From positions 31,585-95,584 of IMG/VR virus record IMGVR_UViG_3300033149_002817: 64,000 nt of DNA. One strand, 5' to 3'. Position 1 is the stretch's first letter, and every line of letters begins with the position of its first letter. The DNA comes from a virus. The position numbers and the translations under genes are program-made. The notes below the pieces were generated by a model that saw only the letters and a list, made by a program, of their open reading frames with translations, made no database searches and was not told the origin of the DNA. This document shows positions 31,199-55,387 of this stretch, piece by piece.

Positions 31199-31207
31199 GG
31201 GGCAGAC

Positions 31208-32294: not shown

Positions 32295-32342
32295 GAGTAC
32301 CTCCGTTTCTGGTATACTCCATTCTGCGTGAAGGTGTAGCTC

Positions 32343-35417: not shown

Positions 35418-35425
35418 GGTATGAC

Positions 35426-36373: not shown

Positions 36374-36384
36374 GAGCGTAGACA

Positions 36385-39300: not shown

Positions 39301-39414
39301 CAGTACGACTGGGATCCGCATCTCTTGACGGTCGGCAACGCGTACCAGCTGAAGATCAACATCGACGCCGGTACGTACATTTCGACGAAGCTCATCAAGC
39401 TCATCAGCGTGTAG
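36385..39414 (+). CDS. Large baseplate-attached fibre or tail-spike-like protein
   Basis: 1009 residues. The first 100 residues resemble BppU-type baseplate upper domains (AIVRSGDTSILFRAALYDVADAKIVAGTTSLRLW, VETYDFNDDTFKAG). Two duplicated modules around residues 155-320 share GTGNNQIQLDAGA/TAASALDNAYLGQTLFI, 'GAGQSRMVLEYAGATKTATVDRNW' and 'GEDQARVVVAYEGATRTCIINRPW'. Residues about 520-710 form a right-handed beta-helix-like stretch with regular short strands. Then three repeats of about 60 residues ('VWDENIVTSHGT', 'VWDENIVTAHGT', 'IWDRALTAVLHN') and a C-terminal Ig-like domain. Fits a fibre foot; receptor function is not shown. Confidence 0.55.
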   Translation: MAESRGMAIVRSGDTSILFRAALYDVADAKIVAGTTSLRLWHVVPTTGAVETYDFNDDTFKAGAVTTATSAMVHRQAENSTYDTGVWTLRHATLTAFTTGDKYVAEVSHASLTREIHIEFQYGATEGDVQFDVWEEILTAGTHDVATSAGRRLREIGTSVIRENTAQGPGTGNNQIQLDAGASAVNGQYDPSLVVLTGGTGAGQSRMVLEYAGATKTATVDRNWRTNPDATTVFQVLAFPGREHVNEGLFTAATAITAQLNTAASALDNAYLGQTLFIRSGTGEDQARVVVAYEGATRTCIINRPWGVTPDTTSAYVMLPQSTPAEVPHNPTGSSLVTGSTISGTVTNIGLNDASYWVMAPVGVAVGGFGLNLELTFLLTQYNAASAVVVDAKWTGSGPVDMWIWNYATSAWDRHSHVGKEIDGAADQTFTYAVLSEYQQDTDGEVKLRFTSPSTTVGDRFSLDQSVVQSVPVGKLTAADTSDSAFRRFVPLAYDGAVHIDTVSGVAGRDLGFHGTTTNPVDNVSDARALADLLGVRAYHLEPGTSITLVSEHKNWEFMGPNATVDLGSQDVDRAFFQYCRVTGTCTISAPFAFPTCYDCNLNSLITPLIVAIRCSCRDVTMSTASQFHTFADCNGGETGAAVHDHTFAATCEAQFLRWSGQLSLKSMAAGCIAHVEGTSVELTIDATCSGGVVNIAGNVHLTDNSGGAVTINQEARVTELSLAAGVWDENIVTSHGTLQSAGYLVRQLAAGIAARTNNSNLNALLAVADVPGHTLPSTDADAVWDENIVTAHGTGSTAGLLLRALGANISARANFPTLNDLLAVPDVVNNTIAHSIWDRALTAVLHNVVDSAGQRLRAIDDLLQGGGSGDAAAILLEVSKLDAATLTSPPIAGSVAAKLDAIIAGISGGVEFVVIVSIRGTELHIEVGLEELGIVLTTPTTCQVEFFAEGGGLVHTLSAGDFGAIGTRGFFQYDWDPHLLTVGNAYQLKINIDAGTYISTKLIKLISV

Positions 39415-39421
39415 GCACCGC

Positions 39422-41491
39422 ATGACGATCATCGTTGATGACAGTGGGCATCCCGTACTGCCGGGGGTACTCCCCGGTGTCGCGATCGGTCCCGCTTCTG
39501 TTCCGCCTACGTCCTTCTGGGCGACGATGGCGGCGGTTCCGCCTGTCGTCGCTCCGCCTGTCGTCTCCGATCCTGACGCGGATGTGCGCTTCGTCCTGCC
39601 GGATCTCTACTATTTCTACCCGCAGGTCATCCGCAACGAGGACGTGTATCTCGTTCCGCGCGGTGACGTTCCGGTGTACTTCTGGGACACCGTGCTGACG
39701 TGGGACACCGAACCTTACTCGTGGGATCAGCTGATCGGCCCGGAGCCGATTCTGCACACGACGACTCGCTGCCAGCAGATTGAATGGGAGCGCTCAGCGC
39801 TGGAGATCAACCGGCTGACGCGGCTGATCGACATCTTTGAGGTGCCCGCTGCCTACCTCGTGTACATCGCGGCGCAGCTCGGGACGGTGCTACCCGGCAC
39901 GAACGTCAGCGAGCAGCGGCTCTTCCTCTTCAACCTCGTGAAGTTCTACAAGGGGAAGGGCACACCGCTCACCTTCGTGCGCATGTTCGAGACGATGGGT
40001 TTTCATGTCTTCCTCACCGAGCAGTACCAGCGGGTGACGGACGCGAACTTCGTTCCCGGACCGCAGATAGCGCTTGTCGAGAGCACGTATGTCCTGGACG
40101 AAGCGGCCGGTACGACCATCGCCTCTCCGGGACCGTACCGGCTACGCCTTGCCAGCAACCCCGTCATGCGTGGCTCCATCAAGGTCACGGTCTACGATCA
40201 GGATGCCAACGCCCCGCGCGTCTTCATCGACAACAACGGCAGCTGGTCGGGCAACGTCACTGGCACCATCGACTACGAGACGGGAGCAGGCTTCTTTGTG
40301 CTGCCAGACACGCCGACGCTCGTGGGGCAGCCGATCACCGTCACGTACCGCTACCTCGCCGATCCGTTTCCGGACCCGTACGGAAGCCGGTGGGTGGACA
40401 GAGTGCGCAGCTCGTACGTCGCGGCGGCGTTTCAGGCGATCGATGACACGGTCGTCGTCACCGAAGAGCTGGCTGAGCGGCTGGAGGCGATGCTGGAGTT
40501 GCTTCGCCCCGCACACGTCCTGTTCGACGACGTTAGCCTCCGCAGCGCGTGGATCGAGGACGCGGCACCGACCGAAGAGATGAACATCTTCGGCATCCTG
40601 TTCTATGAACCGGTGTTCGAGGTGCCTTATCGCGGCTACGGCTACGACGTTACTGAGAACATGTCGACCATCCCGGACCAGCCGTTCGCGGGTCGGCACC
40701 GGGACGAAGAAGAGTGGATCATCACGTACGAGCAGGACGCCTTGCCGACTCCGCAGGCGCCCTACGTGTACCCGTGGTCGCGCACGGGGACGTTTTACAA
40801 CCCGCTCGACGTTACCTCTCCGACGAAGGACTACCTCGGCTACAGCCCCTACGACAGCTATGAGAGCGCGGTTACGGCGGACCTCGTAGCCTCGACGACC
40901 ATCTTCTCCATCACGGACGTGGGCACTCTCCCGGCGACGATCGGTAGCGGCAATTGCAAGCTCGTCTTCAAGACGGCGTCCGCGAAGCTCTCGGGGGAGT
41001 GGAGCGGCGTCGTGACCATCGTCGATAGCGGCGCCTACTTCACGGTCACGGTGAGCCCCGCGCTTCCGCTCGTGCCAGAGACGGGCGACGAGGTCATCCT
41101 GCTCCCGAACCGCGCGGTTCGGCGGGATTGCCTCGACGTGCGGCCGATCGACGCCCTTGATATCTACTACGTCGAGGACGCGTACCCGGGCAACGGCATC
41201 GCGACAACCTTCACGGGTTTCTACATCGCGAGCCAGCCGTGCCTTCCGAATGCGGTGCTGCTACGCTTCACCGTCGCCGGGACGACGTACGAGGAGTCTG
41301 ACGACGGTGTCGGAGGCTTCTCGAACAACAGCGGGCTCGTCGTCGGCGGAGGCACGTCCATCGACTACACGGGACCGGGCGCACCTCCCGCGGGTGAGTT
41401 CAAGTTTCAATCGACGATCGCACCGGACGGCGCAACGAATGTGCAGGTGCTCTACGGCACGGCGGGCACGACAGGACTGGGGGATTTCTGA
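39422..41491 (+). CDS. Baseplate wedge protein of the tail protein I family, extended
   Basis: 689 residues. Residues 125-210 (ERSALEINRLTRLIDIFEVPAAYLVYIAAQLGTVLPG, RLFLFNLVKFYKGKGTPLTFVRMFETMGFHVFLTE) give the tail-protein-I core ('L-P-x-L-A-x-x-[LF]-G', 'R-x-x-[IL]-x-x-x-x-x-x-Y-[KR]-x-K-G-T-P'). The large C-terminal extension contains three beta domains (e.g. GSIKVTVYDQDANAPRVFIDNNGSWSGNVTGTIDYETG). It takes the place of T4 gp7/P2 gpI and links wedge to fibre. It ends with a one-base overlap with the next gene (TGATG). Confidence 0.65.
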   Translation: MTIIVDDSGHPVLPGVLPGVAIGPASVPPTSFWATMAAVPPVVAPPVVSDPDADVRFVLPDLYYFYPQVIRNEDVYLVPRGDVPVYFWDTVLTWDTEPYSWDQLIGPEPILHTTTRCQQIEWERSALEINRLTRLIDIFEVPAAYLVYIAAQLGTVLPGTNVSEQRLFLFNLVKFYKGKGTPLTFVRMFETMGFHVFLTEQYQRVTDANFVPGPQIALVESTYVLDEAAGTTIASPGPYRLRLASNPVMRGSIKVTVYDQDANAPRVFIDNNGSWSGNVTGTIDYETGAGFFVLPDTPTLVGQPITVTYRYLADPFPDPYGSRWVDRVRSSYVAAAFQAIDDTVVVTEELAERLEAMLELLRPAHVLFDDVSLRSAWIEDAAPTEEMNIFGILFYEPVFEVPYRGYGYDVTENMSTIPDQPFAGRHRDEEEWIITYEQDALPTPQAPYVYPWSRTGTFYNPLDVTSPTKDYLGYSPYDSYESAVTADLVASTTIFSITDVGTLPATIGSGNCKLVFKTASAKLSGEWSGVVTIVDSGAYFTVTVSPALPLVPETGDEVILLPNRAVRRDCLDVRPIDALDIYYVEDAYPGNGIATTFTGFYIASQPCLPNAVLLRFTVAGTTYEESDDGVGGFSNNSGLVVGGGTSIDYTGPGAPPAGEFKFQSTIAPDGATNVQVLYGTAGTTGLGDF

Positions 41492-42547: not shown

Positions 42548-43237
42548 ATGAAGAGATCAAGGGAACGTGTCGAGAAGGTCTGTGAGCACTGCGGGGAGCA
42601 CTTCACCATCCTGGCAACGCGAGCGCGTAGAGGGAAGGGACGGTTCTGTTCTCGCCCGTGCGCAAACCTCGGCCGGCGGAAGGTCGGCGAGCGTACATGC
42701 GCGCAGTGTAAGGAGCTGTTCCATCGGCCACCGTCAGAGATGGGAGCGTTCTGCTCAAAGCAGTGTGCGGACGCATCGCGCAGGGTTCCAGCGGAGGAGC
42801 GCTTCTGGAAGCACGTGCAGAAGGGCAAGCCGGACGAGTGCTGGGAGTGGACGGGAGGTCGCTTCAATAACGGCTACGGTCTGCTGTCTATCGACCGGGT
42901 GCCGACCGGAGCCCATCGGTTCTCGTACCAGCTCGTGTACGGTGAGATTCCAGAAGGACGTTACGTCTGCCACACGTGCGACAACAAGGGCTGCGTCAAC
43001 CCTGCGCACCTCTTCGTCGGTACCGCCGCCGACAACATGCGAGACGCACAACAGAAGGGTCGTATGCAGCGTGGTGCGGACCGACCCGCAGCGAAGCTCT
43101 GTGAGGTCGACGTGCGCGTGATACGTTCTCGCGCTTCAGCGGATGAGCTTCATCGGGTCATTGCAAGCGATTACGACGTCTCGTCGGTAACTATCGGGCG
43201 CATAGTTCGACGCATCGCGTGGGCACACGTAAAGTGA
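42548..43237 (+). CDS. HNH homing endonuclease with two zinc fingers
   Basis: 229 residues from ATG 42548, chosen because the promoter -10 box and GGAGG lie just upstream; longer starts overlap the promoter. Two zinc modules come first (CEHCGEHF ... FCSRPC; CAQCKELF ... FCSKQC). The nuclease is of HNH_3 type: CWEWTGGRFNNGYGLLSID, AHRFSYQLVYGEIPEGRYVCHTCDNKGCVNPAHLFVGTAADNMRDA, with H of 'AHR', the CDN..CxNPxH core and the following N of DN. A C-terminal helix-turn-helix (ELHRVIASDYDVSSVTIGRIVRR) resembles that of the antisense HNH. It lies between two fibre genes. Confidence 0.85.
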   Translation: MKRSRERVEKVCEHCGEHFTILATRARRGKGRFCSRPCANLGRRKVGERTCAQCKELFHRPPSEMGAFCSKQCADASRRVPAEERFWKHVQKGKPDECWEWTGGRFNNGYGLLSIDRVPTGAHRFSYQLVYGEIPEGRYVCHTCDNKGCVNPAHLFVGTAADNMRDAQQKGRMQRGADRPAAKLCEVDVRVIRSRASADELHRVIASDYDVSSVTIGRIVRRIAWAHVK

Positions 43238-43245
43238 GGTAGGTT

Positions 43246-44532
43246 ATGGTTTTAGGGATAAAAGGCGCCGACGGGTTGGAGGTAGTCCGCGCTTACGTGG
43301 CGCAAGACCTTGTCTACGCGTCGATTGACAATAGGCCGATCGATGACCTCGGCGCGAGAGATGAGGATCTTCTCCGCCTCCACAAGCCTGCTCACGGTAT
43401 GCACATCGATCAGACGGCCTCGCCCTCCACGCAGGTCGTTGCTGCGCCTGGTACGTGGTACGCCGATGGCACGTCCATAATGCAGTACGCGGGAGCAACG
43501 CTTGCAGCGATCACGCCTACTGCAGCCGGGCGGATCAGACTCGACGTCATCTGGTTCTCCCTCGCGACCTCCCTCGTCACCGTCACGGCGGGTACGGGCG
43601 CAAGTGAGGGTGCTGTTGGGGCCGGTTTCGCTGCCCTAACGCGACCCGATCTTCCCGCGAACACCGGGGCGGTGCCGATCGCGTACCTCTACGTGGGAGA
43701 AGTCACGGGCTCTACGGTCCCCTTCGATCGGACCATTGCGATCAACACCGCGGGGCACATGGAAGACATCCGGCCGATGCCGGGGTTTGGTACCCCGCTC
43801 GGGGCACTGGAGTCGTCAGCTCCTAACCTTGCGGTCGATGGTGTGGCCGCTCTCGGCACGCAGGACGCGCTCGTGCGCTCCGACCATGTTCACCCCGCCA
43901 ACGTCAGCGCGGTGCTTCCCGCGTCGCTCTCCGTGGGCGCGGCAGGTGTGGCAGGCGCAGCATCGGTCTACGCGCGCGTGGATCACAACCATGCGGTTCC
44001 GCCGGCTACGTCGGGCGCGACCTTCCAGAGCGATGTCAGCGGCGGCTCGGCGGGCGCTTCGGCGCTTTTCGCGCGTGCCGACCATCGTCACGTGACGAAC
44101 GTCGGTGCCTCGACGCCTGCGCAGATCACACCAACTTCAGGCAGCGCGTCGGCCGGTAGCGGTACGGTCTACGCCCGGACCGATCACGTTCACTACGATC
44201 CGAACGTCGTCGAGCTGTACACCGTCACGTGGCAGTCAGGTGTGATCGCGCACGGAACCGACATCTTCAACACCTTCATCAATGGCGTCATGAGGTTTGC
44301 GGACAACGGGCTCGTCACGTCGAAGTCGACCGTGCGGTGCGTCGGCTTCGGGATGGTTGGCGCGCCGGACTTCACCGAGTCGAACGAGCGGCACCATGCC
44401 TCTCTCAGCTCGTCCTACATCATCACATACAACCATTTCGGCGTATGGGGGAACATCTCGTACTTCGCGACGTTCGCAGCGAAGCGTGGTACGTGGCGGA
44501 ACGCCCAGAACTTCATCGGCTACTTGAGCTAA
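43246..44532 (+). CDS. Distal tail fibre / receptor-binding protein with DHxH metal motifs
   Basis: 428 residues, RBS GAGG before ATG 43246. The N-terminal 175 residues start with VVRAYVAQDLVYASIDNRPIDDLGARDEDLLRL, the 'R-P-x-x-D-L-x-x-R-D' attachment motif seen in fibre and appendage proteins. Residues 205-320 contain four evenly spaced motifs: RSDHVH (H214/H216), RVDHNH (H247/H249), RADHRH (H280/H282), RTDHVH (H314/H316). In T4 gp37 similar HxH motifs coordinate a line of iron ions in a trimeric needle. The last 110 residues form a globular tip. As the final fibre gene it is the most likely receptor-binding protein. Confidence 0.65.
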   Translation: MVLGIKGADGLEVVRAYVAQDLVYASIDNRPIDDLGARDEDLLRLHKPAHGMHIDQTASPSTQVVAAPGTWYADGTSIMQYAGATLAAITPTAAGRIRLDVIWFSLATSLVTVTAGTGASEGAVGAGFAALTRPDLPANTGAVPIAYLYVGEVTGSTVPFDRTIAINTAGHMEDIRPMPGFGTPLGALESSAPNLAVDGVAALGTQDALVRSDHVHPANVSAVLPASLSVGAAGVAGAASVYARVDHNHAVPPATSGATFQSDVSGGSAGASALFARADHRHVTNVGASTPAQITPTSGSASAGSGTVYARTDHVHYDPNVVELYTVTWQSGVIAHGTDIFNTFINGVMRFADNGLVTSKSTVRCVGFGMVGAPDFTESNERHHASLSSSYIITYNHFGVWGNISYFATFAAKRGTWRNAQNFIGYLS

Positions 44533-44543
44533 CGGAGGCGATT

Positions 44544-44810
44544 GTGCGTAACTTGGGGATGACGTTACTGCTTCTGCTTGCGGTGCTTGTGCTTAGCGCG
44601 TGCCCCGTCACCGTGCAGCAGTACGACGAGCAGACGGTAGCGAACGTGCGGAAGACCATTGACCACGAGCGGAAGACGATGGCGCGAATCGAGGCGACAT
44701 TCCCAGCGGACAAGCTCGCACCGTTCCGAGTGCTGCATGACGCGGAGATCGACCGCCTCGATGCGTGGCTCCTAATGGAAGAGGCCAAGTCGGAGAAACC
44801 CCCGCAATGA
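44544..44810 (+). CDS. Phage lipoprotein
   Basis: 88 residues, GTG 44544 with GGAGG 5 nt upstream. MRNLG then a hydrophobic span (MTLLLLLAVLVLSA) and Cys20 in the lipobox LSAC: signal peptidase II substrate. The mature 69 residues are mostly helical and charged (DEQTVANVRKTIDHERKTMARIEATF). It begins 11 nt after the receptor-binding fibre gene and overlaps the next start (ATGA). T5 Llp, encoded next to its receptor-binding gene, is a lipoprotein that blocks superinfection; o-spanins are also short lipoproteins. Either role is possible; neither is shown. Confidence 0.65.
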   Translation: MRNLGMTLLLLLAVLVLSACPVTVQQYDEQTVANVRKTIDHERKTMARIEATFPADKLAPFRVLHDAEIDRLDAWLLMEEAKSEKPPQ

Positions 44811-45388
44811 CAGCTTTCCACGAGGACGCAGCCCCCTCCGAAGACCTTGAGATGCGCTCTCTCCCCGTCGAGGACTGCAGCATCGCACCGGGCGAGGGCG
44901 ACACGACCGCTGGACCGAATGTCGTCATCCCGCCGCGTGCGCCGCTCGACGAGATCATCGAGGTAGTAAAGTTTGAGGACGCCGTCGAGGCGGCGAAACT
45001 CAAAGCGGAGGTAGTGGCCGACGCGATTGCCGAGATCATCAAGACGCAAGCGCAGGTAGCGCTGACGCAGCTTGCGCAGGCGACCGAGACCGGGCTCGAC
45101 CTCGGCAAGCGCATCGTCCAGGGGATAGCGAACGTCGCGGAGCTGCTCGCCAAGGGTGAGATCGACACCGAGACGGCGAACGAGGCGCTCTCTCAGCGCA
45201 TGATGGCGTTGGAAAACCTCGCGTTCGCAGAGCGGAACGAGGCCGCTCAGATCGCCGCAGCGAGCGCGCGTGCTACCTTCACTGCTGTGTCGAGCGTGCT
45301 CTTCGGGCTCGTGTCGACCGGCATGACGATCATCTCGCCAGCCATCGGCGTTGGTCTGTCAAAGGCTTTGGGATCGCTTGGCGAGTGA
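44807..45388 (+). CDS. Helical protein with C-terminal membrane segment
   Basis: 193 residues from ATG 44807, overlapping the lipoprotein stop. An acidic, low-complexity N-terminus (about 45 residues) leads to a long amphipathic helical region (EAAKLKAEVVADAIAEIIKTQAQVALTQLAQATETGLDLGKRIV ... MALENLAFAERNEAAQIAAAS) and a C-terminal hydrophobic segment FTAVSSVLFGLVSTGMTIISPAIGVGLSKAL that can span or insert in a membrane. This tail-anchored layout is unlike soluble virion proteins. Its stop overlaps GTG 45385 of the next ORF. It may be a membrane partner of the lipoprotein. Confidence 0.55.
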   Translation: MTAFHEDAAPSEDLEMRSLPVEDCSIAPGEGDTTAGPNVVIPPRAPLDEIIEVVKFEDAVEAAKLKAEVVADAIAEIIKTQAQVALTQLAQATETGLDLGKRIVQGIANVAELLAKGEIDTETANEALSQRMMALENLAFAERNEAAQIAAASARATFTAVSSVLFGLVSTGMTIISPAIGVGLSKALGSLGE

Positions 45389-45408
45389 AGATCCGCACGT
45401 TACCGGGT

Positions 45409-45561
45409 ATGAGCAAGAAGACGACGACCCGCGCCTGCGAGCATTGCGGTCGCCGGGTCATCGCTGAGCTGTGGATCGCTGTCAAAGACTGCGTGTGCTT
45501 GCACGGTGTGTGGAGAGAGCGCTACTTCTACCACTGCCCCTACTGTGACGGATTGCGATGA
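45409..45561 (+). CDS. Small zinc-ribbon protein before the kinase
   Basis: 50 residues from ATG 45409 (or 58 from GTG 45385, which overlaps the previous stop as GTGA). Sequence ends in two Cys pairs: CEHCGRR near residue 10 and CPYCDG near 45, with a third CVC pair between, the layout of a zinc ribbon. It is followed after 7 nt by the histidine kinase ATG. Too small for an enzyme; it could be a regulator of the neighbours or bind nucleic acid. Confidence 0.5.
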   Translation: MSKKTTTRACEHCGRRVIAELWIAVKDCVCLHGVWRERYFYHCPYCDGLR

Positions 45562-45568
45562 GGCGCTC

Positions 45569-46660
45569 ATGCCGCCCGACGAGTACGCGCTCCTGTTTGC
45601 GCACATGCTTGATGGCTTCGCGCTGCACGAGATCATCCTCGATAGTTCTGGCAAGCCCGTCGATTACAGATTCCTCGCGATCAACCCCGCGTTCGAGAAG
45701 CAGACCGGACTCCGTGCGGCCGACCTCATAGGGCGTACGGTTCTCGACGCCCTCCCCGACACAGAGCCCCGATGGATCGCGACCTACGGAAAGGTCGCGC
45801 TCACCGGTGAGCCGGTCGAGCTGGAGGAGTACGCTCAGGGGCTCGACCGCTACTTTCGCGTCGTGGCGTTCCGCCCGCGACCGATGCAGTTCGCGGTCAC
45901 CTTTCAGGACGTGACGGAGATCACGCGGGCGGCAGAGCTTCTTGAGCTTCGTGTTAAGGAGCGCACGGCAGAGCTGCAGTCGGCAAATGAAGAACTTGCA
46001 TCGTTCAGCTACGCGATCTCGCACGACCTCTGCTCTCCGCTCAGGGCCATCAACGGATTCGCGACGATCCTGAAGGAAAAATGCGCTCAGACGGCGACAG
46101 CGGACCCGCAGGCGAAGGTGTTCTTGCAGCGTATCTGCAAAGCAACGCTGCATATGGAGGCGCTTATCCGGGGTCTTCTGACGCTGTCGAAGACGACGCA
46201 GGCCGCGATTCGCTGCGTTGAGGTAGACGTGACGGACATGGCGAAGCGGATCGTAGAGACGCTACACTCCGAGGACACGAGCCGAAAGGCGGCCGTCACC
46301 ATCCATCCGGGCATGACGGCGATGGGCGATTCGTCTCTGATCCGTGTGCTCCTCACGAACCTCATCAACAACGCGTGGAAGTTCACCTCAGAGCGGAAGA
46401 CGACCGAGATTCGCATCGGGTACTCGGACGCCGTGTTCTTCGTTGAGGACAACGGTGCCGGGTTCGACGATACGGAGATGGATGGTCTGTTCAAACCCTT
46501 CCACCGGCTGCACGGCATTACCGAGTTCCCCGGCACGGGCATCGGGCTCGCGACGGTGCAGCGCATCGTCCACCGTCACGGTGGTGAGGTGTGGGCTCGT
46601 GCTCAGGTGGACAAAGGTGCGACCTTCTACTTCACACTTCCCCGTGTACCCCCGAAGTAA
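45569..46660 (+). CDS. Soluble PAS-domain sensor histidine kinase
   Basis: 363 residues from ATG 45569 (GAGG 5-8 nt upstream; the GTG at 45506 overlaps the upstream zinc-ribbon gene). Residues about 5-120 are a PAS domain (MLDGFALHEIILDSSGKPVDYRFLAINPAFEKQTGLRAADLIG ... FQDVTE), then a coiled linker, a HisKA dimer with phospho-acceptor H152 in SYAISHDLCSPLRAINGF, and a HATPase_c with N-box NLINNAWKF (264-272), G1 DNGAGF (294-299) and G2 GTGIGLATV (322-330). All key residues for autokinase activity are present. No membrane span and no receiver domain; no response regulator is in the window, so its partner would be host-encoded or elsewhere. Base use is like its neighbours. Confidence 0.85.
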   Translation: MPPDEYALLFAHMLDGFALHEIILDSSGKPVDYRFLAINPAFEKQTGLRAADLIGRTVLDALPDTEPRWIATYGKVALTGEPVELEEYAQGLDRYFRVVAFRPRPMQFAVTFQDVTEITRAAELLELRVKERTAELQSANEELASFSYAISHDLCSPLRAINGFATILKEKCAQTATADPQAKVFLQRICKATLHMEALIRGLLTLSKTTQAAIRCVEVDVTDMAKRIVETLHSEDTSRKAAVTIHPGMTAMGDSSLIRVLLTNLINNAWKFTSERKTTEIRIGYSDAVFFVEDNGAGFDDTEMDGLFKPFHRLHGITEFPGTGIGLATVQRIVHRHGGEVWARAQVDKGATFYFTLPRVPPK

Positions 46661-46682
46661 CAGCATTTCTCTCAATTCTGTC

Positions 46683-46720
46683 TTGACTTCGTGTCCCCGC
46701 CATCGTACTATACTTGTGGA
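46683..46720 (+). promoter_or_regulatory. Promoter module P1
   Basis: TTGACT (46683-46688), 17-bp spacer, TACTAT (46706-46711), then TTGTGGAGCG. The 29 bases from 'catcgtactatac' on are identical to P2 and P3 downstream. The left arm of the inverted repeat (CTCCACA in P2/P3) is altered here. The first of the accessory cassettes begins at ATG 46748. Confidence 0.75.
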
Positions 46721-46747
46721 GCGAGTGAGCTGAGACACGGAGCGCAC

Positions 46748-47089
46748 ATGGGCGACTTTGACAGATACTGGGCGATCGACGAGTGGGGTTCCCACCCGGA
46801 CGAGGGCAATGACGACCTGTGGACCGGAACCGAGCCGTTCCGGGCGGACGAGACGGACGCGAGGGCGTTCTTCAAGGGGTTCTCGCCCACCGAGGGGAGC
46901 AGCACGATGTATCTCGTACTCGTGAAGCTCGACGCCGAAAAGAGCAACGTGGGTGATCCGGTCGCTTACCGCCGGAACCCGGGATACCGGAAGACGAAGG
47001 ACGACCTGTCCGACTGGAACCGCGAGATCGCCATGCAGGCGGGCATGGGCGGCGGCTGCGACGCCTACAACGACGCAATGGGGTACTGA
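46748..47089 (+). CDS. Small hypothetical accessory protein
   Basis: 113 residues. ATG 46748 is used because the promoter lies just upstream and CGGAGCG precedes it; the longer ORF starts inside the promoter. Acidic N-terminal half (MGDFDRYWAIDEWGSHPDEGNDDLW), Trp-rich, then VAYRRNPGYRKTKDDLSDWNREI and a Gly/Met end (MQAGMGGGCDAYNDAMGY). No motif recognised. The stop overlaps the next ATG by one base (TGATGA). Typical of early host-takeover genes in length, promoter and acidic charge. Confidence 0.6.
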   Translation: MGDFDRYWAIDEWGSHPDEGNDDLWTGTEPFRADETDARAFFKGFSPTEGSSTMYLVLVKLDAEKSNVGDPVAYRRNPGYRKTKDDLSDWNREIAMQAGMGGGCDAYNDAMGY

Positions 47090-47496
47090 TGACACGGCTC
47101 TGGAAATGCCCGGAGTGCGGGAAGGGGCTGCGCGCCCCGGGCCGGCTCCGCAAGAACGACACGCGGCGTTACTGCCTCCCCTGCTCCGCGAAGACAGGGA
47201 AGTTGGTAGAGCGCGTCTGCCCGGCAGCAGAGAAGAAGCGCGGCGTCGCCGCTGACAAGGCGAAGAAGCGCGGCGTGAGGCGTAAGTGCCATCCCGACAA
47301 CGAGACCGGCGTCAAGAGTCTTGACGTGGTGGCGGCCGACCCGCGTGTCGTGAAGGTGTGGAGCGAAGGCGAAGACGGCTATTGGGCGGAGCTGAAGCCG
47401 GGGCACAACTTCGAGGGCTGCTCGACGGTGCATGAGTGGACGGTCGAGTACATGAAGGTGGCGCTTGACCTCGTCGAGGAGGGCGACCCGTATTGA
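47089..47496 (+). CDS. Zinc-ribbon protein, early accessory gene
   Basis: 135 residues, one-base overlap with the preceding gene. N-terminal four-cysteine zinc module: CPECGKGLRAPGRLRKNDTRRYCLPCSAKTGKLVERVC, a pattern (x-R-[RY]-Y-C-L-x-C-S-x-K-T-G-x-L-V-E-R) also found in zinc ribbons of SprT-like and other phage proteins. A Lys/Arg-rich linker and a C-terminal domain (GYWAELKPGHNFEGCSTVHEWTVEYMK) follow. No metallopeptidase HExxH is present. Probably nucleic-acid or protein binding. Confidence 0.6.
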   Translation: MTRLWKCPECGKGLRAPGRLRKNDTRRYCLPCSAKTGKLVERVCPAAEKKRGVAADKAKKRGVRRKCHPDNETGVKSLDVVAADPRVVKVWSEGEDGYWAELKPGHNFEGCSTVHEWTVEYMKVALDLVEEGDPY

Positions 47497-47514
47497 CGGG
47501 TTTCGTCGATTTTA
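47486..47514 (+). terminator. Probable terminator before P2
   Basis: ACCCGT (47486-47491), loop ATTG, ACGGGT (47496-47501), then TTCGTCGATTTTAG. The stem overlaps the stop codon of the gene upstream. The stem is short (6 bp), so confidence is moderate. Confidence 0.4.
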
Positions 47515-47517
47515 GAC

Positions 47518-47556
47518 TTGATTTCGTGGCCTCCACATCGTACTATACTTGTGGAG
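47518..47556 (+). promoter_or_regulatory. Promoter module P2 with inverted-repeat operator
   Basis: TTGATT (47518-47523), 17-bp spacer, TACTAT (47541-47546). CTCCACA (47531-47537) and TGTGGAG (47550-47556) form a perfect 7-bp inverted repeat straddling the -10 box. The 60 bases 47505-47564 match 48385-48444 at 56 positions. The repeat is well placed for a dimeric regulator or as a 5' hairpin start. Confidence 0.8.
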
Positions 47557-47587
47557 CGAGTGAGTCAAGCGAAGCGGAGAAGACACC

Positions 47588-48022
47588 ATGTGGCCTGAGT
47601 TCAAGAAGCCTGAGCCGAAGCCGGTCGGCACTTTCCATCTGGCTGAGGACGTGGAGTACACACAGCACTACGAGACCGCCTCGTGGTGGAAGAAGCACGC
47701 CGTCAAGGCGGGCAGCTACCCGATCGTCAAATCGACCGATCACGGTACGAACTACTGGTACCTCGTGCGGCTGCCGTCGGTTGTCGGGAACAGCGCCTTC
47801 GGCCGGAACCGGTACGAAGCCAACAGGGACAAGGGTCAGAGCGGCACGTACCATCTCCAGTTCGACGCCTACCAGGTTGCCAACTTCGTCGGCGAGGGCA
47901 AGGTGACGCTGAACGAGGACTGGGAAGTCGAGACGGTTGGTAAGTACGGCCCGGAGTGCGGGAAGCTGGCCGAGAAGCCGATAGTTCGGGTGAAGCCGGC
48001 TGGCTCGCCCTTCCAGGGGTAG
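47588..48022 (+). CDS. Hypothetical early accessory protein
   Basis: 144 residues, ATG 47588 with AGCGGAG upstream. Pattern FKKPEPKPVGTFHLAEDVEYTQHYETASWWKKHAVKAGSYPIVKSTDHG then YWYLVRLPSVVGN and TYHLQFDAYQVANF, a small beta barrel of the kind used in phage SH3-like host-binding proteins. No catalytic motif. Separated from the next ATG by 8 nt. It is the first gene of cassette P2. Confidence 0.6.
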   Translation: MWPEFKKPEPKPVGTFHLAEDVEYTQHYETASWWKKHAVKAGSYPIVKSTDHGTNYWYLVRLPSVVGNSAFGRNRYEANRDKGQSGTYHLQFDAYQVANFVGEGKVTLNEDWEVETVGKYGPECGKLAEKPIVRVKPAGSPFQG

Positions 48023-48030
48023 GAACGGAC

Positions 48031-48378
48031 ATGGCAAAGAGCAAGCGCGACATCTCGGTGCTCTACGAAAGCATCGACCGCTTCTGTCAGCGGCGGAAGT
48101 TCAAGACTGTGAAGGGCGCAAGCAAGTTCGCCCGGAAGTGGGTCGGCGATCATCCCGAGCAGGGCTCCTACTACGCGGTCAGCTTCGACGGTGTCGGCAA
48201 GGTGAGCTGGTCAGGAGCGACGTTCGACGAGCTGTTTCCGCGCCCGGAGCCCGCCAAGAGCGACGACTACGGCTTCGGTGATTACCCCTACTGCCCCGAG
48301 CCGCCCGAGGTTGATTTCCCGTCGGATCTGCCGCAGTGGGTCGGACCTCCGATCGACGAATACCCCCTCCCGTTCTAA
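48031..48378 (+). CDS. Hypothetical early accessory protein
   Basis: 115 residues from ATG 48031 (the upstream part of the frame overlaps the preceding gene and is not needed; AGGAACGG lies in front). Basic N-terminal half (MAKSKRDISVLYESIDRFCQRRKFKTVKGASKFARKWVGDHP), then YYAVSFDGVGKVSWSGATFDELFP and a Pro/acidic tail (FPSDLPQWVGPPIDEYPLPF). The charge split and disordered end are common in small phage takeover proteins. No domain recognised. Confidence 0.6.
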   Translation: MAKSKRDISVLYESIDRFCQRRKFKTVKGASKFARKWVGDHPEQGSYYAVSFDGVGKVSWSGATFDELFPRPEPAKSDDYGFGDYPYCPEPPEVDFPSDLPQWVGPPIDEYPLPF

Positions 48379-48394
48379 GCGGGAGTCGATTTTC
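48367..48394 (+). terminator. Probable terminator before P3
   Basis: CTCCCG (48367-48372), loop TTCTAAG, CGGGAG (48380-48385), followed by TCGATTTTCC. The stop codon TAA lies in the loop. Same terminator-then-promoter layout as before P2. Confidence 0.45.
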
Positions 48395-48397
48395 CTC

Positions 48398-48436
48398 TTG
48401 ATTTCGTGGTCTCCACATCGTACTATACTTGTGGAG
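48398..48436 (+). promoter_or_regulatory. Promoter module P3 with inverted-repeat operator
   Basis: TTGATT (48398-48403), 17-bp spacer, TACTAT (48421-48426); CTCCACA (48411-48417) and TGTGGAG (48430-48436) repeat the P2 inverted repeat exactly. It drives the three overlapping small genes that follow. Confidence 0.8.
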
Positions 48437-48464
48437 CGAGTGAGTGAGACGCGGAGACACGAGA

Positions 48465-48611
48465 ATGACGACGACTGAGCAGAGGGCCGACGCGGTGTTG
48501 GCTGAGGCAACTCGGGCAGCACGGGCAGGTGGGTTCCGGAAGGCGGGACAGCTCGCAAGGCGGGCAGCTGGCCTGTACGCCGACGCGCGGCGGGAGAAGG
48601 CGCTGATATGA
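48465..48611 (+). CDS. 48-residue Ala/Arg-rich helical protein
   Basis: Starts at ATG 48465, 39 nt after the P3 -10 box, with CGGAGACAC upstream. Sequence is a single amphipathic helix with many Ala and Arg (RADAVLAEATRAARAGGFRKAGQLARRAAG). The stop overlaps the next ATG as ATGA (48608-48611). Too short for the ORF threshold used in many annotations, but promoter, RBS and coupling support it. Function unknown. Confidence 0.55.
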   Translation: MTTTEQRADAVLAEATRAARAGGFRKAGQLARRAAGLYADARREKALI

Positions 48612-48883
48612 ATTGGGGTGAAGCGGCAGCTAAGAGATACGACTACGAAGCGCAGCTGTTCGGGTTGTCGCCGGAAGATCAGCGCTCTGAAGACGACGCG
48701 CTACTGTCCGCCGCTGCTGACGATAGCGAGCAGGGCGCAGCCGTCGCTGACGCGCTCGCCGTCGAGGCGGAGGCAGAAGGGGATCACGAGCGCGCCGCGG
48801 ACCTTCGGGCGTCCGCTGACGAGCAGCGTGAGGACGCGAAGCGCTACCGCGCCGAGGTCGATAAGCTCTACGAGGTGAGGTGA
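48608..48883 (+). CDS. Acidic helical hypothetical protein
   Basis: 91 residues, ATGA overlap with the 48-residue ORF. Highly acidic, Ala-rich and helical (LSPEDQRSEDDALLSAAADDSEQGAAVADALAVEAEAEGDHERAADLRASADEQRED), with TPR-like A-D-L periodicity but no recognised domain. The high negative charge suggests a DNA mimic or host-protein binder, which is an inference. Overlaps the next gene by one base. Confidence 0.55.
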   Translation: MNWGEAAAKRYDYEAQLFGLSPEDQRSEDDALLSAAADDSEQGAAVADALAVEAEAEGDHERAADLRASADEQREDAKRYRAEVDKLYEVR

Positions 48884-49104
48884 TGAAACTACTACCGCTG
48901 GACCGAAGGCTCCGGGAACAAAGCCCCCGGTGGAGCATCGAAGACGGTATTGACGACCTTCAGACCGCGCTCAACATGGCGCGGGCGAACAACGACCGGC
49001 AGCTCGCGCTGATCGCGCGGCTCGCTCACTCGGGCGCGAGGATGGTCGAGTCGGGGCGGAAGCGCCTCGCGGAGAGCGCGGAGATCGAGGCGCTGTTCTC
49101 CTAA
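48883..49104 (+). CDS. Small hypothetical protein
   Basis: 73 residues from ATG 48883 (TGATG overlap; GAGGTGAGG precedes). Helical, with LLPLDRRLREQSPRW, DDLQTALNMARANNDRQLALIARLAHSGARMVESGRKRLAESAEIEALFS. It ends tail-to-tail with the minus-strand gene 49101-49460, overlapping by 4 nt. Function not recognised. Confidence 0.5.
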   Translation: MKLLPLDRRLREQSPRWSIEDGIDDLQTALNMARANNDRQLALIARLAHSGARMVESGRKRLAESAEIEALFS

Positions 49105-49460
49105 TCGTCTTCCGGCTCGATCTCATCGGGGGCCAGCGTGATGCTGTTGCCCTCGCCGCTTTGTACAGGGGGAGCCGGCGGGTGGTCGTCCGGTACCGGG
49201 GGAGGCTCGATCACGACCTCCTTCGGCAGCGACGGCGGGGCAGCCTCGAAGGTCGCGCTCGACTTCAGAAACTCGCTGCGCTCGACGCTGTCTTCGGCGA
49301 TGCGAGCGAAGACGTCGGCGACCTCGCGCACCGGATCGTCGGGTGCCCAGTTTCCCTTCTCCAACGCCCACGTCAGACCCCGATGCACGGCATACACCGC
49401 CCGGATGTCCATCTCGACGTTGTAAGTGACGTGAGGCTGAGCTTTTATGAACGTGGACAT
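49101..49460 (-). CDS. Hypothetical protein, end of minus-strand operon
   Basis: 119 residues from the minus-strand ATG at 49460, chosen because GGAGGG lies 7-12 nt upstream; the longer open frame upstream is Arg/Gly-rich shadow. MSTFIKAQPHVTYNVEMDIRAVYAVHRGLTWALEKGNWAPDDPVREVADVFARIAEDSVERSEFL forms a helical domain, followed by a Pro/Glu-rich disordered tail (EPPPVPDDHPPAPP). Its start overlaps the preceding gene's end by 16 nt. Function unknown. Confidence 0.55.
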   Translation of the reverse strand: MSTFIKAQPHVTYNVEMDIRAVYAVHRGLTWALEKGNWAPDDPVREVADVFARIAEDSVERSEFLKSSATFEAAPPSLPKEVVIEPPPVPDDHPPAPPVQSGEGNSITLAPDEIEPEDD

Positions 49461-49789
49461 TCTGTTCCCTCCGGTTTTCTCTGCTCCAACTCTACCACGG
49501 TGTGGGCGTCGATCAGGGGCGACACGAGAAGCTCGTCCACCGTCTCGAAGAACAGTCGTGGGGCGCCGCTCATCAGCTGGCCTACGATAGGGGCGATGTC
49601 GTCCACCTGGTACGAAGAGAGGCCCCCTGAGAGGGTTGTGAGGTGGACTACCCCCGGGCCGCTGTTCTCTCCTACCCCAGTCGCGTCCTTCCATCCCGCC
49701 TCGCGCAGCGCCTCGCAGAACGTCGCGACCGTCTCCCGAGCCTGCTCGGGGTCGAGACCGAAGGAGCAGCGAACCAAGGCGACCAGCAT
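49445..49789 (-). CDS. Hypothetical protein, possibly continuous with the upstream ORF through TGA
   Basis: 114 residues from ATG 49789 (GTG 49798 would add 3). MLVALVRCSFGLDPEQARETVATFCEALREAGWKDATGVGENSG has a helix pair, then PGVVHLTTLSGGL and IVGQLMSGAPRLFFETVDELLV. Neither start has a good RBS. The frame remains coding-like upstream (residues VDTVSLQLAEGIAVRGPVTE) to an in-frame TGA at 49850-49852, which is the stop of the preceding gene in the same frame. So this may be the C-terminal part of one readthrough or recently split gene. Confidence 0.45.
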   Translation of the reverse strand: MLVALVRCSFGLDPEQARETVATFCEALREAGWKDATGVGENSGPGVVHLTTLSGGLSSYQVDDIAPIVGQLMSGAPRLFFETVDELLVSPLIDAHTVVELEQRKPEGTECPRS

Positions 49790-49849
49790 CTCCGTCACCG
49801 GACCCCGGACCGCGATCCCCTCTGCGAGCTGCAGAGAGACGGTGTCGAC

Positions 49850-50005
49850 TCACTCCTCTCCTTCTGCCGGGACGATGGGGTCGAAGGCCCGGCCACCCCA
49901 CCGGTAGAGCCACCCCTCATGAGCGACGAGGTTCCCGGGGCGTGGCGGGTGCTTGTGTACCCTGACGAACTCGGCGGCGGTCGGTGCGTGCTCAGGTGGG
50001 GTCAT
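49850..50005 (-). CDS. Small hypothetical protein (in frame with the following gene)
   Basis: 51 residues from minus-strand ATG 50005, with AGAGG about 12 nt upstream; overlaps the end of the helix-turn-helix gene by 14 nt. MTPPEHAPTAAEFVRVHKHPPRPGNLVAHEGWLYRWGGRAFDP has the look of a short compact barrel. The stop is a TGA followed by a coding-like stretch in the same frame (see the next gene). Confidence 0.45.
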   Translation of the reverse strand: MTPPEHAPTAAEFVRVHKHPPRPGNLVAHEGWLYRWGGRAFDPIVPAEGEE

Positions 50006-50423
50006 CGTTCGCTGACCTCTGCTTTCTCTGGTGTCTGTGGTCGATCGCGTCCCCGAGGGCGTCGCTGAGCCCGAGGTTACTGACGACCCAACCGTCGAGC
50101 CAGCCCCCATCCGCTGTGCGCTCTGCGAGCTTGCCCCGCTCGTCTACCACGACGAGCTTCGGTTCCTCTCGTTGTACCATTCGCTTCGCACCCACCGCGA
50201 GGAAGCCGAAGATGCCGTGCTCGTGGACCAGCTCCCGAGTGCGGACATGGTCAGCGACGAAGGCGACAGATAGCGCTTTGAAGACCGCGCGAACGTGCTG
50301 AGGTAGCGCGTCGAGTCGTAGCCAACGTCTCATCCTCTGAGGTTTGACTCCGAGCTGCGCCGCAACCTCTTTGTAGCTCAGCTTTAGCGACCGGAGCATC
50401 AGCCTGATAGAGTCTCCGTCCAT
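49992..50423 (-). CDS. Helix-turn-helix DNA-binding protein, first gene of the minus-strand operon
   Basis: 143 residues from ATG 50423. The N-terminal 40 residues (IRLMLRSLKLSYKEVAAQLGVKPQRMRRWLRLDALPQHV) are a helix-turn-helix of the Cro/C1 type with the usual A-x-x-L-G-V-x-x-x-x-x-x-R-W. The rest, including EEPKLVVVDERGKL, is unrecognised, and the C-terminus is polar. As the leading gene of an operon facing the P1-P3 cassettes it is the obvious candidate to bind the inverted repeats there or its own upstream region. A TATACG box lies about 20 nt before the start, without a clear -35. Confidence 0.6.
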   Translation of the reverse strand: MDGDSIRLMLRSLKLSYKEVAAQLGVKPQRMRRWLRLDALPQHVRAVFKALSVAFVADHVRTRELVHEHGIFGFLAVGAKRMVQREEPKLVVVDERGKLAERTADGGWLDGWVVSNLGLSDALGDAIDHRHQRKQRSANDDPT

Positions 50424-51304
50424 GCTCTCACACTTTCGTATACGGCAAAACGACTACCGATGATTCGCTACAACCCCCGTGGTTGAGGGAATCTATAACC
50501 ACCACAAACCCCGTTTTTGAACACCACTGGACGTGTGCAAAGCTCCGTAGAGTCGACCTGTGGGGACATGTAAGCTGAGAGGCAGCAAAGACTTGTGTGC
50601 TGTTTTCGGGCATCCTATGAACACCCTATAAAATCGGATTTTTATATCGAGCATCTAAACACTGAGCACTGAAGGGTTTGCAAAGACGAATGAGCACCGC
50701 TAACGCTACCAATGTTTATTGCTATCATTTTCTTTGAAACTGATTGTTTCGCCCCATCTCTGACACCCGAATATGGCCCATCAATATCCGGGGTTACGAG
50801 GCCGGTTTTCACTGGTACAGAAAAACGATGTCAATAAACTGAGCGCCGGGTTGCCCTCTTCCGCCTTCGACGTGGGGTGAATCCTACTCAACCTGACGGA
50901 TAATCTCCGCAACTCCTGACGGAAACTCAACTTACACACTTGGGAGATTCCCTTAGCGCGGCGGTCGGATTTTTCCTCGCGCGTAAGAAGCTTCTTCTCT
51001 TCGTTCAGAACAGTAAGAAGAACATCAAGATGGAAAACCAATACGGGATGTACCTTTTTGTACAAGTTGAGTAAGCTTAAGCTGTTAGCGAGCGGCGTGC
51101 CAAAAACTCGGCGGAGGAAAAAATTATTTTCGACTGCGGGCATTTGGCTCTCTGGCCGATCAGACAGATGTGACGACACCGCGAGGCTACCATCCGCACA
51201 AGCGTACCCCGCTCAGACTCCCGAGGCGGATTCCAGCCCCGTGTTCCGACATGATCCCGCGTCAGGAGCCCCGGAAGCCCGTCCAGCCCAGCATTCGAGA
51301 GCGG
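50424..51304. other. AT-richer gene-poor region (possible control or origin region)
   Basis: About 0.9 kb without a convincing gene, visibly richer in A+T than the rest (runs such as ccctataaaatcggattttt near 50625 and ggaaaaaattattttc near 51117). Contains an inverted repeat GTGGTT/AACCAC (around 50479-50502), an imperfect 8-bp repeat CCGAATAT/ATATCCGG (50767-50791), and two copies of cctgacgga near 50891 and 50916. ORFs in it on both strands lack ribosome-binding sites and domain-like sequence. It separates oppositely directed operons, so an origin or divergent control region is plausible; no diagnostic iterons were found. Confidence 0.45.
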
Positions 51305-51334
51305 GTAGACGAGGGGTAGGGCGACGAGTATACT
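51305..51334 (+). promoter_or_regulatory. Weak promoter candidate
   Basis: GTAGAC (51305-51310), 18-bp spacer, TATACT (51329-51334) inside the palindrome GAGTATACTC. It lies 27 nt before the GTG of the signal-peptide ORF. Confidence 0.35.
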
Positions 51335-51360
51335 CGGCTCGGTTGTGGCGAGGCGAAAGC

Positions 51361-51675
51361 GTGCGATACTGGATCACTCTCATCCTGCTTGGGTTATGGC
51401 TTCTGGCGTTCCCCGCCACGGCTGGGGACGACCCAGCGTACGGTCTGTTCTCCCGCCCCTACTGCCATTGCGACGCCTGCTGTCGGGTCCGTGACGAGAC
51501 GCTCACGAGCTACCAGGTCCGTCTCGCGGGTCGTTCAGGTGGCTTCGTCTTCAGGTTTGTAGTCTTCATTGTTGAGAGTATGAGGTCTGGGAGTTTTCTT
51601 GATAGTGAAGAGGTTGATTTTGTGTCCTTCTCATCGTATCCTGTAGGTGAGGAGGTTCAAACACATGACAAGTGA
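51361..51675 (+). CDS. Possible small exported protein
   Basis: 104 residues from GTG 51361 with GAGGCG about 9 nt upstream. MRYWITLILLGLWLLAFPATAGDDP is a good signal peptide with A-x-A cleavage. The mature part begins with AYGLFSRPYCHCDACCRVRDE, five Cys in a short stretch. The last 30 codons overlap the P4 promoter and the RBS of the next gene, so the C-terminus is doubtful and the real product may be shorter by frameshift or the ORF may be spurious. The upstream extension to 51058 is Arg/Ser-rich and non-coding in character. Confidence 0.35.
   Translation: MRYWITLILLGLWLLAFPATAGDDPAYGLFSRPYCHCDACCRVRDETLTSYQVRLAGRSGGFVFRFVVFIVESMRSGSFLDSEEVDFVSFSSYPVGEEVQTHDK
51614..51642 (+). promoter_or_regulatory. 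Promoter P4 for the replication block
   Basis: TTGATT (51614-51619), 17-bp spacer (TTGTGTCCTTCTCATCG) and TATCCT (51637-51642). Same -35 and spacer style as P1-P3 (GTGTCC..CATCG), but without the inverted repeat. GAGGAGG at 51649-51655 follows. It probably drives the replication genes from 51665 on. Confidence 0.65.
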
Positions 51676-52030
51676 CACGGGATGGGGCGGCAGGCGTGAA
51701 GGTGCGGGAGCTAAGCAACGGGAGCCTGAAGGCCCTGGGGTGCCGGTGAAGGTGCGCATCACGGGGCATATGATCGAGCGGCTGGCGGAGGTGAAGCTCA
51801 GGAGCTTCGTAGGCAACCGGCTGATGGAGATCGCGGCCCCGGCGACCCGCAGCGACTGCATGCGGCACGCGATGCACCTTGGGCTGAGCATTCACACCGC
51901 GCTGATCGAGCGGAAGCCCGAGAAGCTGCTCGGCCCGCTGCAGACCGCGCTTGAGGCGTCGAACGATATCGGACGGAAGGGCGTCCGCGAGGCGCTCCAG
52001 ACGCTGAAGGACGCCCTTCGGCAGCGGTAG
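51665..52030 (+). CDS. Putative DNA-binding protein at the head of the replication block
   Basis: 121 residues from ATG 51665 (strong GAGGAGG 10 nt upstream, downstream of the P4 -10 box). Starts with GWGGRREGAGAKQREPEGPGVPVKVRITGHMIERLAEV, where G-G-x-R-x-G-A-G is a common start of phage regulatory and small-terminase proteins and 'VPVKVRITGHMIERLAEV' resembles a ribbon-helix-helix strand-helix. A helical C-terminus follows (LLGPLQTALEASNDIGRKGVREALQTLKDAL). A transcription or replication regulator is likely but unproven. Confidence 0.5.
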   Translation: MTSDTGWGGRREGAGAKQREPEGPGVPVKVRITGHMIERLAEVKLRSFVGNRLMEIAAPATRSDCMRHAMHLGLSIHTALIERKPEKLLGPLQTALEASNDIGRKGVREALQTLKDALRQR

Positions 52031-52037
52031 GATCGGC

Positions 52038-53912: not shown

Positions 53913-53923
53913 GCGGCGCACCC

Positions 53924-55387
53924 GTGATCGAGGAGACAGCCGCAAATTACGATTTTGGTACTACTTTTCAGTTCTCCGCAGTCGCGATGGCACTGCGAGA
54001 TCCGGATTTCCTGAAGCTGTACGGGGATGTCTTCAATCCCAGCTACTTCACGCATGTCAACCTCAGCACAATTGCTGATTTACTGAAGCGACACTTCGAG
54101 CGCTTTCAGCATACGCCGAACATCGATGCCCTGGAGGCTTCGTGTAGTGAGCACGCGCGGAAGTACGGTGGTGAAGCTGACAAGGCGGCTACGCTACGCG
54201 CTGAACTACACCAGCTGATAATCAACCTCTGCGATCTGTCACTCAACGATGCTCAGTATATTCGAGAGCGGATGGTTGCCTTCGCGCAGGAGCAGGCGTT
54301 GAAGCATGCGATCCACGAGGGCATCCGGCTGATCGAGAAGAAGGAAGAAGGCGACTACACGCAGTACCGGGAGGTCGTCGAGAGGGCGCTGCAGGTCGGT
54401 GTGGCTCGCGAGGCGGGTATCACCTACGAGGACGTCGCGCCCGACCTGACGGCATACATTCGCACGTCAGGCGTATATGACCCCGCACGTAAAGTGCCCT
54501 TCGGTCTGGCGCAGCTCGACCGCGAGATCAAGGGTGGCATCGGTGCTGGGGAGTTAGCGGTTGTCGGAGGCCGGGCCGGGCTCGGCAAATCAACGCTACT
54601 CGTGAATCTCGGCAAGTCGGCGATGTTCACCTTTGGCAACCAGAGCAAGAGCAACGGCCGCCGCCCGCGTGCTGTCGTTCACGTGACGCTTGAGCTGAAG
54701 GAGCCGGACGTCGCGGTCATGTACTCGGCGCTGCTCGCGGGCGTCACACGTGACGATCTTGTCATGGGTACGGACGCGTACAAACCTCGGATACAATCGG
54801 TGCTCGACGACGTTGCGCCGCTCTTCATACGCTACTTCTCTTCTGCGTCAATCGGAACGAATGAGTTGGAGTGGTACGTCAGTAGCCTGACATTGCAGAA
54901 GGACGTAGACATCGGGTTGCTGATCGTCGACTACGCGGACCTCCTGAATGACATAGGCGGCAAGCGCGGTGACGACACGTACCGCGGTGCAGGGGCCGTC
55001 TACAGCCGACTCATCAACATCGGCGACAAGTTCGGCTGTGCCGTTGCGACGGCGACGCAGATCAATCGTGAGTGGGCGTACGAGAGCGTCGTCGACCTGC
55101 GTGGCGTTGCGGATTCCTTCTTGAAGGGTGCGCACGCGGACATCTTCGTGCTGATGGGACAGTCGCACGTGGACGCGAAGCTTGGTGTCGTCAAGCTCTT
55201 CCTGGGCAAGAACCGACGCGGTGCGTCCAACAAGACAATCCTCTGTGGGCACAACGGTGCTCTCGCGTACATCCGAGAGTTGGGGCCGGAGGAGATCGAG
55301 GTCTTCAAGAAGCACGTCGCCGATCACGCTGACGACGAGGTCCGCAGTCCGAGGGACCGGGGAGGGGGCTGGCGTGGGCGGCGTTGA
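53924..55387 (+). CDS. Replicative DNA helicase, DnaB/gp41-like
   Basis: 487 residues, GTG 53924 (11 nt after the helicase stop; the longer frame upstream is a shadow). N-terminal helical domain (LRDPDFLKLYGDVFNPSYFTHVNLSTIADLLKRHF) as in DnaB-family proteins; RecA core with GGIGAGELAVVGGRAGLGKS, Walker A Lys222, Walker B LLIVDYADLL with D336, ATATQINREW and ADIFVLMGQS for motif H3/H4, and a basic finger FLGKNRRGASNKT. It unwinds DNA as a 5'-3' ring with the primase encoded next. Overlaps the primase start by 14 nt. Confidence 0.88.
   Translation: MIEETAANYDFGTTFQFSAVAMALRDPDFLKLYGDVFNPSYFTHVNLSTIADLLKRHFERFQHTPNIDALEASCSEHARKYGGEADKAATLRAELHQLIINLCDLSLNDAQYIRERMVAFAQEQALKHAIHEGIRLIEKKEEGDYTQYREVVERALQVGVAREAGITYEDVAPDLTAYIRTSGVYDPARKVPFGLAQLDREIKGGIGAGELAVVGGRAGLGKSTLLVNLGKSAMFTFGNQSKSNGRRPRAVVHVTLELKEPDVAVMYSALLAGVTRDDLVMGTDAYKPRIQSVLDDVAPLFIRYFSSASIGTNELEWYVSSLTLQKDVDIGLLIVDYADLLNDIGGKRGDDTYRGAGAVYSRLINIGDKFGCAVATATQINREWAYESVVDLRGVADSFLKGAHADIFVLMGQSHVDAKLGVVKLFLGKNRRGASNKTILCGHNGALAYIRELGPEEIEVFKKHVADHADDEVRSPRDRGGGWRGRR

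Follow-up and report, generated by a model that had tools for sequence, protein, structure and literature searches.

A histidine kinase gene lies on the genome of a tailed phage directly behind three small genes, which raises the question of how a phage might use a bacterial-type sensor and whether its neighbors take part. The locus spans positions 44544-46660 of the window, i.e., the whole 64,000-nt stretch analyzed here (positions 31585-95584 of IMG/VR virus record IMGVR_UViG_3300033149_002817, a 95.6-kb contig of 95,584 bases). The initial annotation had proposed that four translationally coupled genes form one membrane-linked signaling unit, perhaps a new host-control or superinfection system. 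Its four open reading frames (ORFs) were all recovered, joined by ATGA and GTGA overlaps and a 7-nt gap as described. The features of the region are:

43246..44532, + strand: probable tail fiber or appendage, 428 aa (placed by position after baseplate genes; no confident family match)
44544-44810, + strand: small lipoprotein, 88 aa, with the lipobox LSAC reported earlier (from sequence; coding z 5.2)
44807-45388, + strand: helical acidic protein, 193 aa (coding z 9.7; five helices in a low-confidence model, pLDDT 59)
45385-45561, + strand: Cys-rich ORF, 58 aa (50 aa from the ATG at 45409), two CxxC pairs (coding z 2.6)
45569..46660, + strand: soluble PAS histidine kinase, 363 aa (Pfam HATPase_c, HisKA, and PAS_4 above cut-off)
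46670-46730, 47505-47565, and 48385-48445, + strand: three 61-nt promoter-like repeats (an exact 23-nt core in each, 0 expected)

Phage Genome and Setting of the Locus

Gene calls and family scans of the phage contig indicated a T4/SPO1-like build with a contractile tail. The families found include prohead protease, sheath, gp19-like tube, gp25, baseplate wedge proteins, thymidine kinase, and DnaB-like helicase, as well as a family A DNA polymerase and a uracil-DNA glycosylase (UDG) domain. No integrase family was detected in scans of the phage contigs. A sister contig, IMGVR_UViG_3300033143_008746 (G007, L042), is 99.9% identical, overlaps the window at 47089-63909, and adds ~31 kb with portal, RecA, and ribonucleotide reductase genes; joined to it, the readable phage genome reaches ~126.6 kb, with completeness not certified. 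The kinase gene is flanked by sheath, tube, baseplate, and gp25 genes on one side and by helicase, DnaB-like, and PolA genes on the other, and both GC content and codon usage are uniform.

The gene ahead of the lipoprotein gene had been called a receptor-binding fiber. A 428-aa gene is indeed present 11 nt upstream; its label as a probable fiber or appendage is positional, with no fiber family matched in Pfam or PHROG, and the protein was not found in other IMG/VR contigs. So short a distance makes the 5' border of any four-gene cassette arbitrary. Free-standing HNH/NUMOD endonuclease genes were also observed between structural genes, at 42548-43237, just upstream of the fiber-kinase region, and at 31578-32294.

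Relatives of the phage were sought in IMG/VR with the kinase, the helical protein, a 689-aa baseplate-region protein, the sheath, a 1024-aa wedge protein, a 624-aa helicase, and the fiber-like protein. The near-identical sister contigs found either end at 41175 or start at 47089 or 50757, and partial relatives are 89% and 53% identical in the sheath; in both groups the kinase is uncovered. Single-protein scans of IMG/VR revealed no close relatives of the kinase, and no other contig covering the fiber-to-kinase region was found in the collections searched, IMG/VR included. Two near-identical contigs, L004 (window 29436-41175) and L042, end on either side of this region, which may reflect strain variation there or assembly breaks only. 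Sister contigs do not match the final ~90 bases of the window.

Some other features of the genome were recorded. A family A DNA polymerase of 1730 aa is encoded at 56905-62097, where UDG, intein splicing, and LAGLIDADG families occur in the same gene set, probably representing a single polymerase that contains both a UDG domain and an intein. At 15639-18746, four consecutive genes (255-265 aa) begin almost alike (MAANTTYPSL.VEEVTSWDDMP...), forming a tandem duplication within the tail region. No endolysin, holin, or spanin was recognizable in the scanned parts of the genome (G000 and G007; Pfam for endolysin and holin), where a zinc carboxypeptidase (M14) match is the sole peptidoglycan-type candidate.

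Domains, Conserved Residues, and Structure of the Kinase

All three Pfam matches of the kinase passed their cut-offs (E-values of 5.4e-22 for HATPase_c, 2.4e-9 for HisKA, and 4e-6 for PAS_4). They define a PAS domain at residues ~6-120, a HisKA/DHp region at ~120-211 with H152 as the phospho-acceptor, and a HATPase_c domain at 253-359. The protein has no transmembrane segment. Alignment with bacterial relatives revealed that the protein retains H152, D153 (the acidic H+1 residue), and the N, G1, F, and G2 boxes, which bears out the motifs listed by the initial annotation. Of the 34 columns invariant in 14 bacterial relatives, the phage kinase keeps 33, the exception being a V to I change at residue 150. 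Such retention at only 31-50% identity argues for selection on activity. Coding statistics of the ORF are strong (z 12.8), and its codon usage and GC3 match those of the phage, indicating that the gene is not obviously a recent foreign insert.

An AlphaFold model built from a 15-row alignment (mean pLDDT 81, with blocks of the CA domain mostly >85) displays a PAS fold, a long signaling helix, a DHp hairpin, and an ATP domain. Foldseek searches with this model matched the kinase domain of RpBphP2 (8f71; TMt 0.83, rmsd 2.2, 33% identity), and other matches included LOV-FixL chimeras and HK853. The earlier description of an intact soluble PAS sensor kinase on a phage genome was thus upheld by three domains, 33 of 34 invariant residues, and the lack of a membrane segment, and the predicted protein is probably functional.

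Kinase Class and Bacterial Relatives

Searches of the 363-residue protein against viral and bacterial databases, as the initial annotation had suggested, yielded bacterial kinases and few apparently real phage matches. The closest bacterial kinases in the genome collection are 31-50% identical, with 40-50% identity to most relatives of the Cph1/bacteriophytochrome class. By sequence and by its structural match to 8f71, the phage kinase core belongs to the bacteriophytochrome (Cph1/Agp1) class. It shares with the Agp1, RpBphP2, and Cph1 cores the motifs SHDL..PLR, NLINNAWKFT, GFD..LF..FxRLH, and GTGIGLA; its H+1 Asp is that of Agp1, and its +7 Arg that of both Agp1 and DrBphP. Unlike these proteins, it has one short PAS domain (a single PAS_4 ahead of the DHp region), a Cys at H+3, a Ser at H+4, and no regulator gene alongside. 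Since the GAF-PHY chromophore-binding photosensor is absent, the phage protein is not a phytochrome, and the kinase core alone is shared.

We then considered the partners of 22 bacterial relatives. An Rcp1-type single-domain response regulator lies directly downstream in seven (L023, L026, L030, L032, L033, L039, and L040), and the L023 regulator matches RcpA, RcpB, and Rcp1 in PDB. A receiver is fused at the N-terminus in eight (mostly near-copies from Chloroflexi), and another receiver is adjacent in three. The remaining four have no receiver nearby, one of them on a contig that ends ~1 kb downstream; the Rcp1-type partner class is therefore a tendency, not a rule. In the kinase tree most forks are unsupported, and the phage kinase is not grouped with the Rcp1-linked kinases.

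Missing Receiver and Direction of the Reaction

The initial annotation had noted that the window lacks a receiver domain. This proved true of the whole 95.6-kb contig, and a search for a response regulator elsewhere in the genome, extended to the near-identical sister contigs (~126.6 kb in all), found none either. A host response regulator is therefore the likely target of the kinase, as had been suggested.

The residues that follow the phospho-acceptor (H152-D-L-C-S-P-L-R159) bear on the direction of phosphate flow. Work on Agp1 and DrBphP showed that kinase activity requires an acidic residue directly behind the phospho-histidine and that phosphatase activity is controlled at the fourth position past it (usually Thr/Asn, but Glu/Gln in DrBphP); in DrBphP, the +7 arginine also matters for binding of the single-domain regulator (PMC8292422). 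The phage kinase has Asp at +1, Cys at +3, Ser at +4 (neither the Thr/Asn of HisKA phosphatases nor the Glu/Gln of DrBphP), and Arg at +7. The Asp, Ser, and Arg fit a kinase rather than a phosphatase, and from these residues we infer that the protein may be a net kinase with weak phosphatase activity.

Three Small Upstream Genes

None of the three upstream genes could be assigned to a known family. For the lipoprotein, Pfam, PHROG, and NCBIfam gave one weak match, to an Rz-like spanin in PHROG (E 0.02) confined to the 21-residue signal peptide; homology to known exclusion lipoproteins was not found in these collections, and tblastn gave no match in phages at E<=1. A lysis role for the first two genes is possible at most; the lipoprotein would then be a spanin, as the signal-peptide match hints.

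The second protein had been described as helical and of tail-anchored type. Its coding score and predicted helices agree with the first part; the anchor depends on one moderately hydrophobic C-terminal stretch (residues 158-182, KD 1.8) and a low-confidence model too poor for a structure search. No relatives were detected in the IMG/VR single-protein scan or in the other collections searched. For the third, the presence of a Cys-rich ORF with two CxxC pairs makes a zinc ribbon possible; its coding score is weak, yet the best of six frames, a PHROG match is likewise weak (0.006), and tblastn found nothing. Judged on these sequence features, its status as a real gene is doubtful.

We also examined gene spacing across the phage. 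Same-strand neighbors lie <=10 nt apart in 48 of 88 pairs, 26 overlap, and 19 have -4 or -1 overlaps; runs of at least four such close-packed genes occur seven times. Gaps of this size being the majority state, the spacing of the four genes is not unusual and gives a cassette no support. The lipoprotein, helical, and Cys-rich ORFs are close-packed neighbors of the kinase, possibly with unrelated functions.

Promoter-Like Repeats and Expression

The three 61-nt direct repeats are 77-100% identical over 61 nt, follow the pattern TTGA[CT]T ... TACTATAC, and each precede a set of small genes without assigned function. A sigma70-like site is found at 46683-46711, inside the first repeat, and no RNA element was detected by Rfam. 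These repeats likely represent a phage promoter family. The first begins 9 nt past the kinase stop, implying that the upstream gene run ends there with the kinase as its last gene. The kinase would then probably be made with the late genes, as the final member of a long same-strand structural run.

Histidine Kinases in Other Phages

Among 50,697 phage records, 130 matched the kinase at 1e-5. Going by their names and annotations as a group, most of the 130-152 "phage" kinase records seem to be host sequence filed under a phage name and were not accepted as phage genes; many entries labeled as Listeria, Acinetobacter, Salmonella, or Escherichia phages carry sensor kinases of apparently chromosomal type and may themselves come from the host. 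These results bear out the claim that histidine kinases are rare in phages. Apparently real phage kinases were found in a Microcoleus phage, a 735-kb uncultured phage, a Microcystis phage, and a mycobacterial prophage. Among predicted viral structures, giant eukaryotic viruses account for many kinases and uncultured tailed phages for several. When IMG/VR was scanned with a profile of this class, relying on two peptide patterns and hence giving a lower bound, one provirus-like locus was detected.

The kinase of Microcoleus phage My-WqHQDG (88856-90493 of its record) is also a tailed-phage HisKA-HATPase_c protein; it differs in having its own receiver gene directly alongside and in belonging to another subfamily (long branch). 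In this phage (L016, 5044-8134), a hypothetical gene that weakly resembles a second receiver comes after the adjacent kinase and receiver genes, and a complete phage-encoded relay is possible. The hybrid kinase of the 735-kb phage (LR756501) resembles ours in PAS subtype (35% identity over 113 aa) and in having a HisKA-HATPase_c core, whereas it contains several PAS domains and a fused receiver. Two PHROG families, phrog_10912 ("kinase") and phrog_857, match the kinase half at 7e-33 and 4e-31, respectively, but are longer (970 and 468 positions) and align only from residue ~116 on. The provirus-like IMGVR_UViG_2509276065_000002 encodes a kinase of the same class (39% identity), although with multi-PAS/GAF sensor parts and a receiver protein just downstream. 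In the provirus-like record of 114 kb (L041, 1885-7833), two receiver proteins accompany two histidine kinases, and in one of these kinases the H-box is changed to VARDL.

In the literature searched, neither "phage(-encoded) histidine kinase" nor "viral histidine kinase" occurred as a phrase. "New", as the initial annotation had it, is too strong, since one phage kinase that lacks a regulator is already in the literature: AgrC of Clostridioides difficile phage phiCDHM1, for which a host regulator was proposed as the target (PMC3901668). Like the present kinase, AgrC is carried by a phage whose genome has no response regulator. In contrast, it is a quorum-sensing kinase next to agrB and agrD, with a proposed transfer from the host, whereas ours is of a different class, soluble and PAS-bearing, and no integrase was found in its phage. 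An orphan phage histidine kinase is thus rare yet precedented, and does not represent a new class.

Possible Roles of the Phage Kinase

The best explanation, to which we give about an even chance, is an orphan cytoplasmic kinase of the bacteriophytochrome class and of bacterial origin that phosphorylates a protein of the host, an Rcp1-type single-domain regulator being the likeliest target. The gene would have been acquired from a bacterium, kept by a large contractile-tailed phage, and expressed with the late genes. Its PAS domain would sense an intracellular cue, the kinase dimer would autophosphorylate H152, and the phosphate would pass to a host protein, the phage having no receiver domain of its own. 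Partners of the bacterial relatives suggest that the recipient would most likely be an Rcp1-type regulator.

The missing receiver would also suit a decoy or drain, in which the phage protein binds host regulators, forms mixed dimers with host kinases, or strips phosphate, silencing a two-component pathway. Precedents are the related DrBphP, which acts on its single-domain regulator purely as a phosphatase (PMC8292422), and the phage protein PIT4, which attaches to kinase domains of the host and changes several two-component systems, so that phages do act on such pathways (PMC10714779). The kinase residues of our protein, however, are all intact, including the H+1 Asp and N-box Asn that DrBphP has lost; its H+4 residue is Ser, not Thr, Asn, Glu, or Gln, and an intact ATP site would be superfluous for a decoy. 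We therefore regard this role as unlikely, while worth serious attention.

Fiber-flanking regions are common cargo sites. A host gene caught in this variable region might be expressed and yet useless to the phage, as its location, the HNH endonuclease gene just upstream of the fiber-like gene, and the sister contigs that stop on either side (41175 and 47089) would allow; strains may differ here, and no other contig carries the region. Such a neutral passenger is decidedly improbable, as nearly all invariant residues are kept despite deep divergence and codon usage is phage-like, which argue for long residence under selection. As to the membrane-linked signaling or superinfection-exclusion cassette, the four genes overlap or nearly abut, and an envelope link for the kinase could be provided by the lipoprotein and the hydrophobic protein; but close packing is the norm in this phage, the kinase has no membrane segment, the other genes have no relatives anywhere searched, and the third ORF is doubtful. 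Neither the single unit nor the superinfection system was supported, and we consider the cassette very unlikely. Bacteria commonly carry kinases, and mislabeled host contigs do occur in phage collections; nevertheless, with phage structural genes on one side, replication genes on the other, and uniform composition, host DNA or a chimeric assembly is hardly credible.

A more far-reaching version of the preferred host-directed kinase is a long shot. It supposes that in a non-temperate T4-like phage the late PAS kinase might sense the state of the infected cell and phosphorylate a host Rcp1-type regulator, timing lysis or reshaping host behavior, with the adjoining lipoprotein and helical membrane protein relaying an envelope signal.

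Phage control of host signaling is known mostly through inhibitors or quorum-sensing parts. If the preferred reading is true, this phage would plug directly into a host phosphorelay by supplying an intact soluble sensor kinase but no regulator. Both the residue pattern and the bacterial relatives point to a concrete class of target, which makes the proposal testable in vitro.
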